DNA from: Kangiella marina
GTDB taxonomy: Bacteria; Pseudomonadota; Gammaproteobacteria; Enterobacterales; Kangiellaceae
DNA length: 64,000 nucleotides
Direction of reading: 5' to 3'
Assembly: GCF_039541235.1 (NCBI RefSeq)
Contig: NZ_BAABFV010000001.1
Coordinates: forward strand, 434,001-498,000
Positions 29,705-40,334 of the stretch are shown piece by piece; within the stretch, counting starts at the first letter, position 1, and every line of letters begins with the position of its first letter. A program made the position numbers and the translations under genes. The notes beneath the pieces are model-generated. The model was given only the letters and a program-made list of their open reading frames with translations. It was not told where the DNA came from and ran no database searches.

Positions 29705-30505
29705 TTAACCGAAGTCGCTGATATCCAACCCGAACTCATCTAAAGCGCCTTTATCCAGCTTCAACCCTGTTAAAGGAGGAATGACTAAGGTTGAAATCGT
29801 CGATATGTCTATCTGAGGCAACTCTTTAAGCATGAACGTATCTATTCGTGGCTTCTGCACCGGTATAAAAGGAGCTTCATACAGGATCATTTCATGCTGA
29901 AGTGGGTACCATTTATTCAAAATACGCACTGTCGCCTTCAAATTCTCTTGCGTTGTTTTAAGTGTTTTTAGCGTATGCTCACCGGCTAGACCAATTTGCC
30001 ATAAAATGGTGTAGGCTGATGTATTTAGCGGTACTCCGCTAAATAAAAACTGAGTCGCTTCATAAGCTTGGCAACCGGTAGTACCGGGGTCGATACCCAG
30101 ATCGGCATAAAGACACGCATCCGCGGAAACCCCCGGAAGCATCTGAGCTGGATACCCCTCCGTTTTCAAGCGCTCGATAGCAAAATGTCCGACACAGGCA
30201 AAAATACCTGGATGACCATACAGCGCCAGTACGACTTTATTTCCCTCTCGCACCGACTGGCAAACGACCTCGGTCATGTCTTGGTACGTTTGACGACGAG
30301 ACTTACCTTCAGCGTACAAATACTGGAGGCTTTTATAGGATGGATTTATCGACTTTACCCAGTCTTCTGAAAGCTTATCTGGCAAAATGCCAAAAACACG
30401 TTCAGCCTGCTCAAGATAGTTTTTAGATAGGGTTGTAATTTGCCCGGCAAGAGTAATACCAGTGCCAATGCATGTTAAAGAACCATTGGCTTTTTTAATA
30501 TTCAT
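29705..30505 (-). CDS. Split borosin-type peptide alpha-N-methyltransferase (SonM-like)
   Basis: A 266-residue tetrapyrrole-methylase-fold SAM enzyme. The N-terminal CIGTGITLAG and the ALYGHPGIFACVGHF segment form the SAM site, and LPGVSADACLYADLGIDPG is typical of the fold. Tyr64, Arg70 and Tyr74 in YLYAEGKSRRQTY have the same spacing as the catalytic Tyr/Arg/Tyr of the borosin enzyme OphMA (recalled numbering 66/72/76). There is no cobalamin or sirohaem biosynthesis context. A SonA-like precursor is encoded at the head of the same operon. Predicted role: backbone N-methylation of that peptide in trans. It starts 12 bp after the GGDEF stop. Confidence 0.85.
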   Translation of the reverse strand: MNIKKANGSLTCIGTGITLAGQITTLSKNYLEQAERVFGILPDKLSEDWVKSINPSYKSLQYLYAEGKSRRQTYQDMTEVVCQSVREGNKVVLALYGHPGIFACVGHFAIERLKTEGYPAQMLPGVSADACLYADLGIDPGTTGCQAYEATQFLFSGVPLNTSAYTILWQIGLAGEHTLKTLKTTQENLKATVRILNKWYPLQHEMILYEAPFIPVQKPRIDTFMLKELPQIDISTISTLVIPPLTGLKLDKGALDEFGLDISDFG

Positions 30506-30517
30506 AGTTATAACAGC

Positions 30518-32236
30518 TTAATATACTTGGACTTGGTTTCGACCGTTTCTCTTGGCTTGATACATAGCATTATCAGCCTCAATAATCAGCTCTTCTAAAG
30601 ACTCACCGTTACTCTTTTCCGCAACGCCGAAACTTGCAGTAATGCGGAAGTCACTGGGTAGTTTCGCATGCTCTATTTCTTTAAAGGCTTTAGCACAACG
30701 TTCAATAAACTTTATAGCATCTTCGCTCATACACTGAGGCAGGATAACAATAAACTCTTCGCCGCCTAGCCTACCAAATACATCAACCGGGCGTATTCTT
30801 TCCTTCACACAATCGCTCACTTGTTTTAATACCCAGTCACCCATTGCATGGCCAAACCGATCATTAACAGTTTTGAAGTAATCCAAATCAAAAATAATGA
30901 CGCAATAACGGCTATCGTTGATTAGGCTATTATGATGAACATCATTAGCCAGTTTTAATGCAGACCTGCGGTTTAAGGTGTTTGTCAAAGCATCGACTTG
31001 AGAAAGCCTTTGGTAACGTTCTTTTTGTTTTTTTACTCGCCACAACCATAAACTAATCCCTGTTAACACGGTTAGCACTATCACTAGAAGCAATTGAAAG
31101 TTTCTTTTCGACTGAACTTCGACTTGACTGGTCAGTGCTAACAACTTATTTTTTTGATCTAAAATTTTGATTTGTGCGTCTTGATCCAAGTGTGCATATT
31201 TAACTTTTTGAAAAGCTAAGTTTTTATCCGCCTGCTCTTTCAGCATCTTATCTTGGATAATGGCAAGCTCTAATAAAGCCTTATAAGCCTCACTATAGTT
31301 ATTATTTTTTTCATAGTACTTCGCCATTAATTCTGTCGCATCCTTTCGGCTCACACCAGACTCTTGCACTTCAGTTTTATGTAGAACTTCGTCAATATAC
31401 ACCTTAGCCTTTTGAAACTCGCCAGTCTCAATATAGACACGAGCTAAGCCAAGCTTGATCTTCAAAATATCAGGCTGGTAACCATTGTCAGCAGATATTT
31501 TTAGCGCTGCTCTATAAGCTAACTCAGACTTTTCTAGCTGGCCATGATTAAAGTAATTTTGCGCTAAATTTTTATATAAATTGGCATCGACAACCAAGAT
31601 ATTAAGGCCTTTACAATACTCAATGCTTTCTTTAAGCCGCTCGTCATGATTTATGCTCCTATCTTGCCTTAAATAGATATTAGCTACTAATGCTTTCACA
31701 TAGCACTGATTTTCATTATTATTCATCGCCACGGCAATATCACTTGCTTTAAGGACGTACTCTAGAGCTGCGTCGTAATCACCTAACTCTACAAAAATAT
31801 TAGCTGCGGCATAGTATGAAGTGAACTGCAAGGACCGGTCTTGAATTTTAGGCGTTACAGACAAACCTTCAAACAGGTAATTAAAAGCCTTTTGATATTC
31901 ATTCAGGCTCATATAGATTTGAGACAGTAACGAATAAGCAGCTAGCCTTGAGTCCTCAGACACCCCAGGCAGTTGTAACAATAACCTTAAGGGGCTTTGT
32001 GCTTTTTGACTCTCTGATTTCAGTATATAGAAATACGATTCTTGAACGTAAAACCGGGCTTTTTGTTCATCAGTCTCAAAATCTCCCCACCGACTTTTTA
32101 AGTCCTGAATCAGCCGAAACGCTTGCCCAGAGTCGCTAGTATTGCTCTGCTTTAATTGCTGCAAGTCTTGCTCTATATCTGCTTTGGCTGTATCAAATAT
32201 AAAAAGCAGAGCTAGTACTAAAATAAATCTTTTCAC
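30518..32236 (-). CDS. Diguanylate cyclase with periplasmic TPR domain and GGEEF
   Basis: The product has 572 residues from a GTG start. The order is: signal peptide (FILVLALLFIFDTAKA); about 300 residues of TPR-like helical repeats (for example AYSLLSQIYMSLNEYQKAF and AALEYVLKASDIAVAM); a coiled segment; one membrane helix near 380-398 (LLLVIVLTVLTGISLWLW); then a cytoplasmic GGDEF domain with an intact active site GGEEF (491-495) and an I-site RPVD (482-485). It should make cyclic di-GMP under product inhibition, sensing something in the periplasm. It lies between precursor and methyltransferase genes with gaps of only 7 and 12 bp. Confidence 0.92.
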   Translation of the reverse strand: MKRFILVLALLFIFDTAKADIEQDLQQLKQSNTSDSGQAFRLIQDLKSRWGDFETDEQKARFYVQESYFYILKSESQKAQSPLRLLLQLPGVSEDSRLAAYSLLSQIYMSLNEYQKAFNYLFEGLSVTPKIQDRSLQFTSYYAAANIFVELGDYDAALEYVLKASDIAVAMNNNENQCYVKALVANIYLRQDRSINHDERLKESIEYCKGLNILVVDANLYKNLAQNYFNHGQLEKSELAYRAALKISADNGYQPDILKIKLGLARVYIETGEFQKAKVYIDEVLHKTEVQESGVSRKDATELMAKYYEKNNNYSEAYKALLELAIIQDKMLKEQADKNLAFQKVKYAHLDQDAQIKILDQKNKLLALTSQVEVQSKRNFQLLLVIVLTVLTGISLWLWRVKKQKERYQRLSQVDALTNTLNRRSALKLANDVHHNSLINDSRYCVIIFDLDYFKTVNDRFGHAMGDWVLKQVSDCVKERIRPVDVFGRLGGEEFIVILPQCMSEDAIKFIERCAKAFKEIEHAKLPSDFRITASFGVAEKSNGESLEELIIEADNAMYQAKRNGRNQVQVY

Positions 32237-32243
32237 TGGAAGG

Positions 32244-32459
32244 TTACAGGTTATGCTCTTTTACATTATGAACAACAACAGCGTACTCTCCTCCACCTGT
32301 CAACTCTTTTACTTTGTCCATATCAGCATGTTGAACTGCATTAATTTCGTCATCATTTAAACCAGCAGCTTCCATCGTCGCAACAGGCTCAGCTTTATAC
32401 GCTTCCATTAACTTAGCATTAGTGCCAAGCTCGGTTAAAAACTTATTTAACGTTGACAT
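32244..32459 (-). CDS. Borosin precursor peptide (SonA-like)
   Basis: A 71-residue peptide. Residues 1-54 form a helical borosin-binding-type domain (MSTLNKFLTELG, LMEAYKAEPVATMEAAGLND, INAVQHADMDKVKEL). A glycine hinge TGGG follows, then a C-terminal core EYAVVVHNVKEHNL. From memory it aligns end to end with Shewanella SonA, where residues in a YLVISH core are methylated; the matching positions here are in YAVVVH (59-64), probably Ala60 and Val62. A weak GGGAA site precedes the ATG. It is first in an operon with a diguanylate cyclase and the methyltransferase. Nif11/LigA-type leaders look superficially similar. Confidence 0.83.
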   Translation of the reverse strand: MSTLNKFLTELGTNAKLMEAYKAEPVATMEAAGLNDDEINAVQHADMDKVKELTGGGEYAVVVHNVKEHNL

Positions 32460-33407: not shown

Positions 33408-36176
33408 CTACTTGAGCCTTAATCTAGTCACTAATATTGCAAAAAGTAAAGATAGTAGCCACCAGTCATTTGAACCGCCACCGGATGACGGGGCATTAAC
33501 AGTAATACGGACACTTGCTGTAGCAGAAGCTCCGTAAGGGTCAGTCACCGTATACTGGAAGCTATCACTGCCCGAAAAGCCCGCATTTGGTGTATAAGTA
33601 AAGCTGGTTCCTGAAACAGTTAAGCTACCACTTGACGGGTTTGAGTTTTCTATAGTTAACTCATCGCCATCTGAGTCTGTGGTGCTAAAAGTACCTGAAA
33701 CTGCTGTATCTACGCTAGTGCTTATTGTCACCAAATTAGCAACCGGTGCATTATTGATTACTGCTATCGTGACTGTAGCCGTTGACTCTGCACCACTAGC
33801 ATCCATCGCAGTGTATTCAAAAGTATCCTCTCCACTAAACCCTTCGTTTGGCGTATAAACAAAGCTACTGCCTGAAACAGTTAAGCTACCATTTTCTGGG
33901 TTAGTATGGTTATAGGTTAACTCATCGCCATCTGGATCCGACGCTTCAAAGTCACCTGACACTTCTGTTTCTGTTCCTGTTGATAAGTTTACAGGGTTAG
34001 CAACTGGAGCATCATTCACAACATTAACCGTTAATGTTACTGTCGCTTCAGCTTTGCCTCCGTGCACATCCTTTGCTGAGAAAGTAAACGAATCTTGTCC
34101 ATTGAAATTCAAAGCGGGTTCATAAGTAAACAGGCCGTTAGCTGAAATAGTCACTGTACCGTTGGAAGGCTCAGTCACAATACCAAATGTAATGTCGTCA
34201 CCCTCAGGATCGGTAGCACTTACAGACTCATCAATAGATGTGTCTTCATCAAGAGTAAAGTCAGCGCTGGCTGCTGTAGGAGATAAGTTAAACTGATAAG
34301 CTCTAAGCTCGTTCTCGAACTGGACAGCGCCAACGATATCTGAGCCGTCAAATGCTAAACTTGATAATTCAGGTACTGCTTCTAGCTGACTAATGATAGA
34401 AATATTAGCAGAGTCAGAAATATCTACGGCTAACAAGCCATTTGTTGAGCTTAATAGAATCGTATCTGAGTCGATTTCAGTAGCCGCTGTCACAAGACCA
34501 AAACCTGAAAGCTGGCCAATATGATTAGCCGCTGTGAGGTCAGAGATGTCGATTAAGAATACGCCGAAGTCACTTGCAGAAATCGCAACGTCCCCTGTAA
34601 CGAATAATTTTGCTGAGGTTACCTCAGACATCGTCGGAACAGATACAACCGAAGGATTAGCAGTATCAGAAAAATCAACAGCCAACAACTCTGCGTTGAC
34701 ACTTGAAGCTAGTACATAGTCACCATAAGGAGTGATTTCTTTGATGTAGTGCTTAGCTCCTGAGCTTGCGGGCGGCAATGTGATTGACGATACTAACGAT
34801 GGTACATTAGTACTTACATCGTATACTACGATAGTGCCATCACTGGCCCCGACATACAGAGTATTGTCACGTTCTTTAAGGTAAGTGATAAACCCATCTG
34901 CGCTAGGCGTTTTACTATCAAGGAACGAACTAGGATCTAAGGTCGAAAAATCATAGGTATCTAGATTTTTTTCAACACCCAACCAGCCGATATTATTTTT
35001 GATCTCAGCTGCCTGAGTATTAACCCCAGCAACCAAAGGGATGCGGCTTTTTGGTATAAATGAGTATTCAGCATCTATATCGATGATGTGGAACAGTCCA
35101 GTTTCATCAGAAACCAACACTCTTCCATCACTCATATCTAAATCCTCAGGAATCATCGATTGACCGTAGCTACCCAACGGATCCATATAAGGTACGGCCT
35201 CTGATGAAATATCTAAAGTTCTTAGTCCATCAACTCCATAAGCAACATACAGAGCATCTGCACTGTTTGTGAAGCCATATATTTCGTGAGTACCAGCTCT
35301 AATATCATCTTGGAAGGTAGGAGAGTTTGGAGTGCTTATATCGAACTGAAAAATCCAACCATTAAATTTACCAGCAAATAATTTATCTCCAATAACATGA
35401 AGAGACTTTAGAACTTCAATATCTTCAAAGGAGGACCCCGTATTGACAGTGCTTACGAATGACGGATTATTTACATCGGAAATATCATAGACACGCAAAC
35501 CACCTGCAGCTCCAATATATAAAGTATCACCCACTATTGATGCGTCATAGTAAAGGGTACCTTCCGCCTCTGCTAAAGTGAGCTCTGTAATAAGGTTCTC
35601 GTCAGTAAGGTCAAAGGCTCTCACTTTCTTAAAACGACTGACCGTATAGAGGTAATTACCATCTATTTTTGCTTCAGAGACATTTCCTAATGAACCAAAT
35701 GTTTGTGTATTGATATTTTGTAGGTTAGTCAGATCTGATGCATTAAAAACAGCTATATCACTATTGCCACCGATCATGTACATGCGGTTACCTACTAACT
35801 TAACGCTGTTTACTGCATAACCTGAAGAGTCAAATGTCCCGATCAATGTCGGAGCAGAGCTATCTGAGACATCAAAGAAATGAACCTCAAATGCACAGCG
35901 GACAACCAGAGTATTTCCATCGATATCTAAATCTGTTGAACCACAACCAACAGCCAGTTCATCGATTAAAACTACATTCGAGCTATCAGTGACATCTAAT
36001 ATTATTAGATCTTCATTACTATCAACAGCATATGCGGTATTGTTATGGTATGCCACGTCATAGAATGGCCCCATTCCGTAGGATGACTCTAAATCAACCA
36101 AAGTGCCATCAAGAGCACGACTGTCTGTGGAAATAAAGGATAAAGCGCAAGCAAGTGTCGCAAGTATTTTTTTCAT
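33408..36176 (-). CDS. Surface protein with LVIVD propeller repeats, three Ig-like repeats and GlyGly-CTERM
   Basis: A 922-residue exported protein. It has a signal peptide (MKKILATLACALSFISTDSRA) and about 600 residues of LVIVD-type propeller repeats (for example NEDLIILDVTDSSNVVLIDE and LRVYDISDVNNPSFVSTV). Three cadherin/Ig-like tandem repeats follow (VSATDPEGDDITFGIV, FEASDPDGDELTYNH, FSTTDSDGDELTIEN, each with a GxxTYTPN-like turn). The C-terminus SSGGGSNDWWLLSLLFAIL followed by VTRLRLK is a GlyGly-CTERM signal for rhombosortase processing. It is probably cell-surface or type II-secreted. Acidic DxDGD loops suggest calcium binding. No rhombosortase gene is in the window. Confidence 0.88.
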   Translation of the reverse strand: MKKILATLACALSFISTDSRALDGTLVDLESSYGMGPFYDVAYHNNTAYAVDSNEDLIILDVTDSSNVVLIDELAVGCGSTDLDIDGNTLVVRCAFEVHFFDVSDSSAPTLIGTFDSSGYAVNSVKLVGNRMYMIGGNSDIAVFNASDLTNLQNINTQTFGSLGNVSEAKIDGNYLYTVSRFKKVRAFDLTDENLITELTLAEAEGTLYYDASIVGDTLYIGAAGGLRVYDISDVNNPSFVSTVNTGSSFEDIEVLKSLHVIGDKLFAGKFNGWIFQFDISTPNSPTFQDDIRAGTHEIYGFTNSADALYVAYGVDGLRTLDISSEAVPYMDPLGSYGQSMIPEDLDMSDGRVLVSDETGLFHIIDIDAEYSFIPKSRIPLVAGVNTQAAEIKNNIGWLGVEKNLDTYDFSTLDPSSFLDSKTPSADGFITYLKERDNTLYVGASDGTIVVYDVSTNVPSLVSSITLPPASSGAKHYIKEITPYGDYVLASSVNAELLAVDFSDTANPSVVSVPTMSEVTSAKLFVTGDVAISASDFGVFLIDISDLTAANHIGQLSGFGLVTAATEIDSDTILLSSTNGLLAVDISDSANISIISQLEAVPELSSLAFDGSDIVGAVQFENELRAYQFNLSPTAASADFTLDEDTSIDESVSATDPEGDDITFGIVTEPSNGTVTISANGLFTYEPALNFNGQDSFTFSAKDVHGGKAEATVTLTVNVVNDAPVANPVNLSTGTETEVSGDFEASDPDGDELTYNHTNPENGSLTVSGSSFVYTPNEGFSGEDTFEYTAMDASGAESTATVTIAVINNAPVANLVTISTSVDTAVSGTFSTTDSDGDELTIENSNPSSGSLTVSGTSFTYTPNAGFSGSDSFQYTVTDPYGASATASVRITVNAPSSGGGSNDWWLLSLLFAILVTRLRLK

Positions 36177-38081: not shown

Positions 38082-38870
38082 TTAGGCGGTTCCTAGGAGA
38101 ATGTCACGCTCTAGCAAACTGGTTAAAATTTGCTGGCCACCATTCAGTAGCTGTTCAGGCTGAGGGAAATTGGTTTCCTCAATCAGTTGCTCTAAGGCCT
38201 GTTTGCCCGTGATCTGCCGACCTTCATGCAAGTGTTCAATAAAAATATCCAGCAAGCGATAAGTCATTGAATTTCCTTCCATAAAGTCAACTTCATGCTT
38301 ACGGTTTCGGCTAATCAATAGAAATGTTGGTGTTTCTGGAGGGGTATCTGGCAGATAACTGGGGCCAATTCTGTGCACCGGATATTCATACACTAAGCTA
38401 TGAGCTAAAGGAGACACCACAACCGGCTCGCTAACGAGGTCGCCATTGCGCTCGTGGGGAATTTGCAGGATGTTTTCTTTGGCTGAAACAGTCGCAACCT
38501 CCATCCATTCCCAGTGTGCCAGTTCAAGCATAAATGGAAAATCATCACCTTCGGGCTTTCTGTGCTCTGAAAGATAATTAAAAAACTCTTTTGAAATTTC
38601 AATGAAGTAAGGTGACTCAGCTCTATAGTTCGTAAAAAAATCGCGAACCATGCGATGCCACTTATCATCGGCGGTTATTGACCGCAACACAGGAAAACTG
38701 TTCTTACAGAAGCTTTCGATATTATTGTAGAACAGATCTTGATAGACCTTCATGCGCCGAGCTTCTATCCCTTCTGGTGCTTTCGCCTCAGCGGGATTTC
38801 GCAGGTTCTTTGAGAATTCATATTGGATTTGCTGGAATCTATTGTGAGAGTTAGGTTTTGGATCAGTCAT
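38082..38870 (-). CDS. DUF2063 partner protein of MNIO enzyme (HvfC/BufC-like)
   Basis: The product has 262 residues. The N-terminal DUF2063 domain (RRMKVYQDLFYNNIESFCKN, SFPVLRSI, FFTNYRAESPYFIEISKEF) is followed by a variable C-terminal domain with a winged-helix-like precursor-recognition region. These proteins form heterodimers with DUF692/MNIO enzymes and present the precursor peptide. It starts 11 bp after the MNIO gene stop, the canonical B-C order of hvf/buf loci. Confidence 0.88.
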   Translation of the reverse strand: MTDPKPNSHNRFQQIQYEFSKNLRNPAEAKAPEGIEARRMKVYQDLFYNNIESFCKNSFPVLRSITADDKWHRMVRDFFTNYRAESPYFIEISKEFFNYLSEHRKPEGDDFPFMLELAHWEWMEVATVSAKENILQIPHERNGDLVSEPVVVSPLAHSLVYEYPVHRIGPSYLPDTPPETPTFLLISRNRKHEVDFMEGNSMTYRLLDIFIEHLHEGRQITGKQALEQLIEETNFPQPEQLLNGGQQILTSLLERDILLGTA

Positions 38871-38881
38871 AGGCCTAACTG

Positions 38882-39727
38882 CTATGCAATAGCTGGTTGG
38901 CTATCTTGTTTATCACTATATTGTTCCTGCAACTCTTTAATTTTATCCACTTCAGCAAGCAACTGCGGCATTGCTGGTATGTTAAAGTCACGCTCTAATA
39001 GCGTTGGAAACACACCAAAATGTTGGTACGCGGTTTCCAGTAATGACCACACATCTGCTTTGACGTCGGCACCGTGCGTATCGACTTTTAGATCATCAGC
39101 CTCATCGTAATGCCCTGCTATGTGCGAGTAGGCAACACGATCTTTGGGTAAGGCTAATAAAAATTCTTTAGGGTCATAGTCATGATTAATGCTGTTAACG
39201 TATATATTGTTAATGTCCAATAAAATATCGCAATCAGCTTCTTCGACTACCGATTTGAAAAACTCGAGTTCAGACATTTCCTGTCCTGGCGCAGCATAAT
39301 AAGACACATTTTCCATTGCTAAACGCTGTCCAATAATATCCTGAACCTGTTTGATACGATCAGCCACGTAATGAACCGCATCTTCGGTAAACGGGATGGG
39401 CATAAGGTCATACATGTGACCATCATCACTACAGTAACTTAAGTGTTCGCTGTAACAGCGAATATTGTACTTCTTAATAAACTCAGCCACTTCTTTAACA
39501 AACGCGGTATCTAAAGGGCTTGGACTACCAATTGAGAGTGATAAACCATGAATGACAAACGGAAAGCGCTCTGCATATTGCGCAAAGATTTGTTCCAAAT
39601 GTCCTCCGAAGGGTAGCCAGTTTTCTGGAGCGACTTCCATGAAATCAACGTTAGAAGCGTCCAAAGCCTCAAATTCACGCATGAAATCACGTCTTAAACC
39701 GAGTCCGGCACCTGTTACTGGATACAA
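38882..39727 (-). CDS. DUF692 multinuclear non-haem iron oxidase (HvfB/BufB-like)
   Basis: A 281-residue TIM-barrel MNIO enzyme. Iron-ligand regions of the family appear in FVIHGLSLSIGSPSPLD, YSEHLSYCSDDGHMYDL, MENVSYYAAPGQEMSELEF, DILLDINNIYVNSINHDYD and YSHIAGHYDEADD. Such enzymes convert cysteines in the partner peptide to thiooxazole or oxazolone-thioamide groups. The start is a TTG at 39725-39727, preceded by AAGGTGA at good spacing. It lies between the Cys-repeat precursor gene and the DUF2063 gene. Confidence 0.92.
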   Translation of the reverse strand: MYPVTGAGLGLRRDFMREFEALDASNVDFMEVAPENWLPFGGHLEQIFAQYAERFPFVIHGLSLSIGSPSPLDTAFVKEVAEFIKKYNIRCYSEHLSYCSDDGHMYDLMPIPFTEDAVHYVADRIKQVQDIIGQRLAMENVSYYAAPGQEMSELEFFKSVVEEADCDILLDINNIYVNSINHDYDPKEFLLALPKDRVAYSHIAGHYDEADDLKVDTHGADVKADVWSLLETAYQHFGVFPTLLERDFNIPAMPQLLAEVDKIKELQEQYSDKQDSQPAIA

Positions 39728-39762
39728 AATATCACCTTAGAAGAGTTGGGAGTTGAAAGGAA

Positions 39763-39784
39763 GGGTGGCGGAGAACCACCACCC
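39763..39784 (-). promoter_or_regulatory. Hairpin between precursor and modifying-enzyme genes
   Basis: GGGTGG (39763-39768) can pair with CCACCC (39779-39784), or GGTGG with CCACC at 39776-39780, in the 81-bp gap after the precursor stop. It could partly terminate transcription or protect the precursor mRNA so that peptide is made in excess over enzyme. There is no clear T run. Confidence 0.45.
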
Positions 39785-39808
39785 CATGTTGAAGAATGGC
39801 TTAAAGAA

Positions 39809-40189
39809 TTAAGCTACGCCGCATTTACCTTCGCCGCACTTACCTTCTTTCTCGGCTTTATCTTCGCCGCACTTGCCTTCGCCGCATTTACCTTCTTTCT
39901 CGGCTTTGCCTTCACCACATTTACCTTCGCCGCACTTGCCTTCTTTCTCGGCTTTATCTTCACCGCACTTGCCTTCGCCGCATTTACCTTCTTTCTCGGC
40001 TTTATCTTCACCACACTTGCCTTCGCCGCATTTACCTTCACCTGCGTCGAATTTAGCAAGATCATAGCCAGCTTGAAGGTCGTTTAATGCGAAAGGATTG
40101 TCGCTTGCAGCGGCAGTACCCATGGCAGCAGAAGCTGCGATTGATGCACCAACGATCATGGCTAGTTTTTTCTTGTCTTTGTTTAACAT
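39809..40189 (-). CDS. Cys-repeat metallophore precursor (HvfA/bufferin-like)
   Basis: The product has 126 residues from the ATG at 40189, which has AGGAG eight bases upstream; the frame to 40306 is not credible. A signal peptide (MIVGASIAASAAMGTAAA) is followed by a leader ending FDAG. Residues 51-126 are five units: EGKCGEGKCGEDKAEK repeated four times (the third has EGKAEK) plus a last EGKCGEGKCGVA, giving ten cysteines. EGKCG motifs are the modified sites in Haemophilus HvfA. A copper-chelating, exported RiPP is the likely product, made with the DUF692 and DUF2063 proteins downstream. Confidence 0.9.
   Translation of the reverse strand: MLNKDKKKLAMIVGASIAASAAMGTAAASDNPFALNDLQAGYDLAKFDAGEGKCGEGKCGEDKAEKEGKCGEGKCGEDKAEKEGKCGEGKCGEGKAEKEGKCGEGKCGEDKAEKEGKCGEGKCGVA
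39812..40039 (-). repeat. 48-bp tandem repeats encoding EGKCG units
   Basis: The 228-bp coding stretch is four 48-bp units and a shortened fifth, each encoding 16 residues. Near-identity at the DNA level makes the copy number likely to vary by slippage or recombination. All three forward frames of the opposite strand are also open here, which explains spurious ORFs. Confidence 0.85.
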
Positions 40190-40237
40190 AGAACTTACTC
40201 CTAGGTTGCTTACTTTAGTTAAGTTATTCAGAAACTT

Positions 40238-40264
40238 AGACTTACCATATCTGAATTTGTTACA
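40238..40264 (-). promoter_or_regulatory. Possible ECF-type promoter of the Cys-repeat precursor gene
   Basis: Read on the minus strand, TGTAAC is followed after 17 bases by GTCT, 49 bp upstream of the start codon. A TGTAAC/GTCT pair resembles promoters of some ECF sigma factors, and related bufferin loci are under ECF control. No sigma-factor gene is adjacent. This is a sequence-only suggestion. Confidence 0.35.
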
Positions 40265-40334
40265 GATTTTTCTTATTTCATCTAAATTTCGCTTTTTTTG
40301 GGACAAATGTCACGCAAAAAATAACTTAATACTA

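Follow-up and report, generated by a model that had tools for sequence, protein, structure and literature searches.

In a window of DNA from Kangiella marina (the whole stretch analyzed, 64,000 nucleotides (nt) long), a three-gene operon is predicted to encode a type IV split borosin system, whose methyltransferase (MT) and precursor both appear intact and which includes, between the two, a gene for a membrane protein with a TPR sensor part and a GGDEF domain. We lean cautiously toward the reading that the N-methylated peptide is sensed by a periplasmic TPR receptor with a cyclase output. On the minus strand, running from 32459 to 29705, the genes encode a precursor of 71 amino acids (aa), a TPR-GGDEF protein of 572 aa, and an MT of 266 aa; the gaps of 7 nt and 12 nt, with the third gene lying between the pair, give the locus the look of a three-gene operon. 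The features are as follows.

29705..30505, minus strand: backbone N-methyltransferase (predicted, SonM-like), 266 aa; phmmer E=1.9e-84 to SonM 7ltc_A, and residue mapping
30518..32236, minus strand: sensor diguanylate cyclase (predicted), 572 aa; Pfam TPR and GGDEF matches, hydropathy, structural model
30533..31000, minus strand: GGDEF domain; PF00990 E=3.9e-38, with GGEEF at 30752-30766 (motif scan)
31142..32179, minus strand: TPR sensor part, about residues 20-365, predicted periplasmic; TPR matches, helical repeats in the model
32244..32459, minus strand: borosin precursor, 71 aa, SonA-like; phmmer E=2.9e-15 to SonA 8t1s_B, residues 1-65
32301..32459, minus strand: leader, a borosin binding domain, residues 1-53; homology to SonA, ungapped alignment
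32247..32285, minus strand: predicted core YAVVVHNVKEHNL, residues 59-71, with predicted N-methyl sites A60 and V62; SonA alignment

The peptide and the MT lie where an initial annotation of this DNA had placed them, on the minus strand, as a 71-aa precursor and an MT carrying Y64-x5-R70-x3-Y74, and its proposal that they form a split borosin is borne out by the SonM-like enzyme, the active-site residues, the borosin-binding-domain leader, and the SonA-aligned core. It had also put both genes in one operon. They do share a strand and lie close together, with a single gene between them; they are not adjacent, however, and the TPR-GGDEF gene at 30518-32236 had been overlooked. That account of the locus was incomplete, missing both this gene, within its own coordinates, and a further borosin locus elsewhere in the genome. 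A promoter and terminator scan gave results near shuffled expectation and was given no weight.

The MT aligned with SonM (PDB 7ltc) over residues 8-266 at 286 bits (phmmer, E=1.9e-84) and 49% identity, compared with an E of about 7e-46 for fungal OphMA and 0.0027 (20 bits) for the best CobA-type chain. Together with the match of the precursor to SonA (E=2.9e-15), this carries the Y-x5-R-x3-Y pattern noted in the initial annotation beyond chance. By residue mapping, Y64, R70, Y74, and Y96 of the MT correspond to Y58, R67, Y71, and Y93 of SonM, and these Y/R/Y/Y columns were kept in 130, 132, 132, and 131, respectively, of 133 aligned MTs (for one of which, L194, the first MT half alone entered the alignment). 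SonM mutants at these active-site residues have reduced catalytic parameters, according to PMC8429565. The side-clamp spacing from Y to R is 5 in the window MT versus 8 in SonM; among the loci listed, it was 8 in 17/17 from the genus Shewanella and 5 in 9/9 from Kangiella clade A. The MT of Kangiella taiwanensis KT1 is 88% identical to that of the window.

That the MT is a tetrapyrrole (corrin or porphyrin) methylase, with the small protein unrelated to it, has almost no likelihood. Pfam does assign it to the general TP_methylase family and to nothing narrower, but the best NCBIfam model, YabN, scored 34.6 bits against a cut-off of 525, the cobalamin and siroheme models scored about 20 bits against cut-offs above 160, and the CobA/CysG model TIGR01469 gave 20.1 bits against a cut-off of 185. 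Given these scores far under the cut-offs, the vastly better match to SonM than to CobA-type chains, and a SonA-like precursor, the tetrapyrrole identity was rejected; CobA/CysG-type enzymes, which the initial annotation had named as the danger to its claim, are not the best match at the sequence level (20 bits versus 286 bits for SonM).

The precursor aligned with SonA without gaps across residues 1-65 and ends in GGGEYAVVVHNVKEHNL; its linker is 3 residues shorter than that of SonA. The SonA sequence from G783 (G numbers denote genomes), whose MT is 100% identical to SonM, ends in SGDSSYQSYLVISHGNGD. The borosin binding domain of SonA comprises residues 1-53, and SonA is methylated at L63 and I65 (PMC8429565). 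The window core YAVVVHN aligns with YLVISHG of SonA, so that A60 and V62 are the predicted methylation sites. Both had been proposed in the initial annotation, and by homology to Leu63/Ile65 of SonA the proposal is sound, but position 60 is proline in 3/5 orthologues. Since proline, itself a tertiary amide, is not open to N-methylation, two methylations cannot be general in the family. In these five close Kangiella orthologues the core varies at this one position only (A60 in 2, P60 in 3), and the A60/P60 exchange fits a site that would tolerate, or want, an N-alkyl group. Amino-acid identity among the orthologues was 95.7% in the core (140 codon pairs), with 34 synonymous codon differences, versus 84.3% in the leader (573 codon pairs). 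A Pfam LigA-like match to the precursor fell just below the cut-off (23.3 versus 25.3 bits); we rejected a LigA dioxygenase subunit on that score and because deposited SonA chains carry the LigA name too. Almost certainly, then, 29705-30505 and 32244-32459 are a borosin MT/precursor pair, and by its sequence the Kangiella pair adds a member to the already known type IV split borosins.

We then considered the protein encoded between them. Its N-terminus is a hydrophobic, signal-like stretch ending in AKA-D, and hydropathy places a membrane helix at about residues 380-398, beyond the TPR part; accordingly, the TPR part is predicted to be periplasmic and the cyclase cytoplasmic. In an AlphaFold model built with six sequences (mean predicted local distance difference test (pLDDT) 80.4, predicted TM-score (pTM) 0.56), the cyclase comes after a domain of helical repeats. 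The TPR part is similar by sequence to the TPR domains of LGN and kinesin light chain, which bind peptides. The C-terminal part carries GGEEF, an RxxD I-site five residues ahead of it, and a GGDEF fold supported by PF00990 and by Foldseek matches to SiaD, WspR, and PleD; with its intact GGEEF, this domain is predicted to be an active diguanylate cyclase. Across the sensor-GGDEF proteins, a membrane helix separated the parts in 100/102, and an N-terminal hydrophobic stretch was present in 80/102.

To place the operon, MT genes were sought in several genome samples, which overlap one another. They were found in 20/20 Kangiella genomes, 10/369 sampled over the class, 120/250 of a second order, 4/4 of one family, 28/99 of the own order (Kangiella included), and 67/77 Shewanella genomes, this genus being taken as Shewanella from an MT 100% identical to SonM. 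We collected 128 neighbourhoods, or loci (L numbers), with 133 MTs: the window, 37 more Kangiella loci, 4 from named records, 66 from the class, order, and family samples, and 20 more from Shewanella. The 66 loci (56 genus labels; two are Shewanella) were hand-picked without prior sight of their neighbours, in most cases one or two from each genus, and the 133 MTs are not independent events. The MT counts exclude a fragment match (E=4.5e-5) and, in L039, a fragment of 50 aa. Open reading frames (ORFs) truncated at a contig end were made to begin with M, and A was substituted for each unknown residue.

A precursor lay within 3.5 kb of 123/133 MTs, and a TPR-sensor gene on the same strand within 3.5 kb of 119/133 (88 with GGDEF, 29 with GGDEF not detected, and 2 fused to the MT). 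By group, the sensor accompanied 41/42 Kangiella, 22/22 Shewanella, and 56/69 other MTs. At 105/133 MTs the precursor gene stood directly 5' of the sensor gene, and the order of MT and sensor varied. L149, with precursor and sensor on the opposite strand, was scored as having neither; in L224, sensor and GGDEF lie in two frames.

Co-absence was seen in Shewanella. All 20 genomes with an MT carried the sensor (E<=1e-27), and none of the 10 without an MT did; in these ten, the best sensor match was partial (3e-22) and of a kind also found in MT-containing genomes. The 20 (of 67) were genomes whose neighbourhoods had already been fetched and whose sensors were known beforehand, whereas the 10 were all the MT-less genomes of the 77, so that the new information is the 0/10. 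A one-sided Fisher test gave 3e-8, a value corrected neither for kinship nor for how the 20 had been selected. Near an MT lay 29/30 strong sensor matches in this genus; these counts were made by eye, with one gene counted as two pieces and partial matches above 1e-27 excluded.

The linkage could also be examined within K. marina, whose genome carries a second split borosin locus with an MT (G000:C1:1220298-1221053) 44% identical to that of the window. This second locus, spanning G000:C1:1215434-1222500 (L055, L002), holds a 75-aa precursor, the MT, and four tandem TPR-only genes, beside what we take to be a gcvP-like glycine-cleavage gene. When this genome, which has 23 GGDEF matches, was searched with the entire window sensor, the matches elsewhere that covered the TPR part alone were three second-locus genes (E=4e-11 to 2e-4) and a weak one at 523378 (E=6.6e-4). 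A seven-row sensor profile recovered all four second-locus genes at E<=7e-63, with partial, generic TPR matches elsewhere at 5e-25 and 9e-11; besides the window's own, every match in the genome at E<=1e-30 was at the second borosin locus.

Across the 20 Kangiella genomes, 55/60 full-length sensor matches (E<=1e-28) had an MT no more than 6 kb away, against about 1% expected by chance, and 41/42 MTs had a full-length sensor match nearby; the 55/60 tally was made from hand-entered coordinates, with partial TPR matches above E=1e-28 excluded. Clade B sensors consist of the TPR part alone and occur in one to four copies. Among the sensor-only ORFs examined, 44/49 had an N-terminal hydrophobic stretch, and most were predicted to be secreted. 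In 13 Kangiella genomes with two loci each (26 of 38 Kangiella loci in all), every sensor was compared with its paralogue in the same genome and with the sensor from whichever locus of another species had the nearest MT; the latter was the closer at 26/26 loci, suggesting that the loci travel as units.

Some Kangiella loci differ in their peptides. Clade C precursors (L040-L042, L054, L057, L061-L067) have an acidic tail after a hydrophobic stretch, for example ...VILAPAEDDED..., unlike the clade A core. Separately, one stop codon was counted inside each of the MT matches of L054 (G016:C3:303524-304261), G001:C1:41970, G003:C1:384654, and G004:C1:330613; since all four places nevertheless give ORFs 245-247 aa long, the stop is probably near the end of the alignment.

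The output joined to the sensor is not constant. A histidine kinase (HisKA/HATPase) was joined to the sensor-profile stretch in L151, L154, L157, L158, L159, L162, L163, L207, and L209; six of these nine also have a receiver domain, and L207 has a separate sensor-GGDEF gene in addition to its sensor-kinase. TPR, GGDEF, and MT were found as single proteins at L175:4188-6767 (859 aa, Pfam-confirmed) and L191:4282-6807 (841 aa), a precursor gene adjoining each.

Other arrangements were also seen among these loci. Further MTs sit in frames of 763-881 aa, for example in G623, G569, G450, and G557. L196:6868-7707 has three tandem precursors, and in L183 and L163 one MT is flanked by two precursor+sensor pairs. 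L194:3826-5448 encodes a 540-aa double borosin MT with two TP_methylase stretches, adjoined by a precursor and lacking a sensor.

Many related bacteria have a sensor of this family alongside their borosin pairs, and this hints at a signalling role for the peptide; a TPR part predicted to lie outside the inner membrane, usually encoded near the peptide gene and attached to exchangeable outputs, is what would be expected of a peptide receptor. In the pathway we propose, the SonM-like enzyme would bind the 71-aa precursor by its helical leader and N-methylate backbone amides of the core, most likely at V62 and, where it is not proline, at residue 60. The modified C-terminal peptide would be cleaved off and would then reach the periplasm, where the membrane protein encoded next door may bind it through its TPR domain and so switch the cytoplasmic GGDEF domain. 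The peptide could thereby set the level of cyclic diguanylate (c-di-GMP), as gene linkage, co-absence, output-domain swaps, and fusions suggest. That the TPR protein is functionally part of the borosin system is highly probable; that it is the receptor for the borosin peptide is an evenly balanced proposition. The broader generalization, in which gammaproteobacterial split borosins are peptide signalling systems with a periplasmic TPR receptor and an interchangeable output (cyclase, kinase, or none), is put forward tentatively, at a little under an even chance.

Two other roles for the TPR protein have to be weighed against that of a receptor. The product may be an ordinary borosin, with the TPR-GGDEF protein sensing some other cue (the surface, the envelope, or a product of another cell) and timing production via c-di-GMP. 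We regard this as rather unlikely, yet it fits the linkage and the fusions: close gene spacing and TPR-GGDEF-MT single proteins would be no less in keeping with regulation of the enzyme than with a receptor, and GGEEF is intact. It accounts less well for the TPR-only copies and the output swaps, since the clade B proteins, mostly predicted to be secreted, have no cytoplasmic output domain and other loci use a histidine kinase as output. More improbable still is that the TPR protein makes or handles the peptide, as a chaperone, docking platform, or export or retention partner, with the cyclase or kinase output secondary. TPR-only versions adjoining MT and precursor, and the frequent position of the precursor directly 5' of the sensor (105/133 MTs), agree with such a role; the TPR part, however, is predicted to be outside the cytoplasm, whereas enzyme and precursor are expected inside, and exchangeable signalling outputs would be left unexplained.

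Several observations weigh against the signalling interpretation. As the initial annotation had stated, the operon has no protease or exporter gene; nor was a signal peptide seen in the precursor, so that the operon itself offers the peptide no evident route to a periplasmic sensor. Fourteen of the 133 MTs lack a sensor gene on the same strand. These include L149, L039, which is on a 5.9-kb contig, and L070, which has only a distant cyclase-AAA-TPR protein; of the remaining sensor-less MTs, seven (L197, L202-L206, L208) are also without a recognised precursor. Full-length sensors without an MT nearby were found in turn (5/60 in Kangiella and 1/30, in G795:C3, in Shewanella), and a search around the five Kangiella orphan genes (4 stretches) found no pieces of an MT or precursor. 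The sensor profiles were built on borosin-linked genes, which biases them toward such matches. MT and sensor trees were correlated (r=0.70, 115 pairs; 5/120 pairs were dropped, their sensor having already been used), as plain vertical inheritance would also produce. Of the TPR-only proteins at the second K. marina locus, 2/4 pass the cut for an N-terminal hydrophobic stretch. Among the kinase loci, L157-L159 had low sensor scores (35-52 bits) and may be generic TPR, and L209 had no Pfam TPR match at E<=1e-4. All 50 Foldseek matches listed, of 387 at E<=0.001, for the TPR-GGDEF model were GGDEF proteins, so that they say nothing about the sensor part.

If a receptor for the N-methylated peptide is indeed what the sensor provides, then the borosin operons of Kangiella, Shewanella, and numerous further genera would be circuits leading from a peptide to c-di-GMP or to a kinase, rather than natural-product clusters. 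Backbone N-methylation would in that case have a use in bacterial signalling, and receptor output would offer a way of sorting borosin loci. Linkage, co-absence, and output swaps make this a testable candidate role in S. oneidensis.

Two other features of the window were observed. At 38082-40306 on the minus strand lies a second RiPP-like locus (ribosomally synthesized and post-translationally modified peptide), with an MbnB/TglH/ChrH-family enzyme (PF05114, E=4.8e-104), a DUF2063/NGO1945 partner, and a Cys-rich repeat ORF of KCGEGKCGEDKAEKEG units with a 133-residue part without Pfam match; we presume that it resembles a bufferin- or methanobactin-type system. At 33408-36176, also on the minus strand, a 922-aa protein has bacterial Ig/cadherin-like repeats and a C-terminal GGGSNDWWLLSLLFAILVTRLRLK tail, presumably a GlyGly-CTERM sorting signal.

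Both the type IV class and the chemistry it carries out have been described in print (PMC8429565), with no pathway tied to a final natural product at the time of description, and a review (PMC11285071), citing mining papers of 2022, describes type IV clusters as widespread in bacteria. GGDEF appears among borosin architectures in a figure legend of PMC11395268 (underlying work: Imani 2022, Cho 2022), in a passage that indicates neither what it does there nor how general it is; those architectures are perhaps like the L175 and L191 fusions, whereas the cyclase of the window is a separate gene. In the open-licence literature, a borosin with GGDEF was found only in that legend and a split borosin with a diguanylate cyclase was not found; no report of a Kangiella RiPP was found there either, and the locus numbers SO1478-SO1480 occurred only in PMC8429565. 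Looser searches of that literature brought up no borosin among the matches listed (8 of 883 and 6 of 305). The TPR-GGDEF linkage is offered here as evidence, not as a first report.

Among known systems, the encoding of a TPR domain beside a short peptide gene is shared with the RRNPP family. Its receptors (PlcR, Rap, ComR) are cytoplasmic TPR peptide receptors, whereas the TPR part in the window is predicted to be periplasmic and is joined to GGDEF (elsewhere to histidine kinases); because its TPR part comes after an N-terminal hydrophobic stretch and before a membrane helix, and is predicted on that ground to lie outside the cytoplasm, the TPR-GGDEF protein was rejected as a member. Fungal OphMA belongs to the same MT family, and its Y-x5-R-x3-Y spacing equals that of the window MT, but it is a fused form that carries the core on the enzyme itself, in contrast to the separate precursor gene of the window. 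Closest is SonM/SonA of Shewanella oneidensis (PMC8429565), which likewise has a separate MT and precursor, the Y/R/Y/Y residues, a borosin-binding-domain leader, and a hydrophobic core. In L215, where the MT gene is 100% identical to SonM, SonA comes next and a TPR-GGDEF gene right after it. The two loci differ in gene order: precursor, sensor, and MT in the window, and MT, precursor, and sensor at the SonM/SonA locus.

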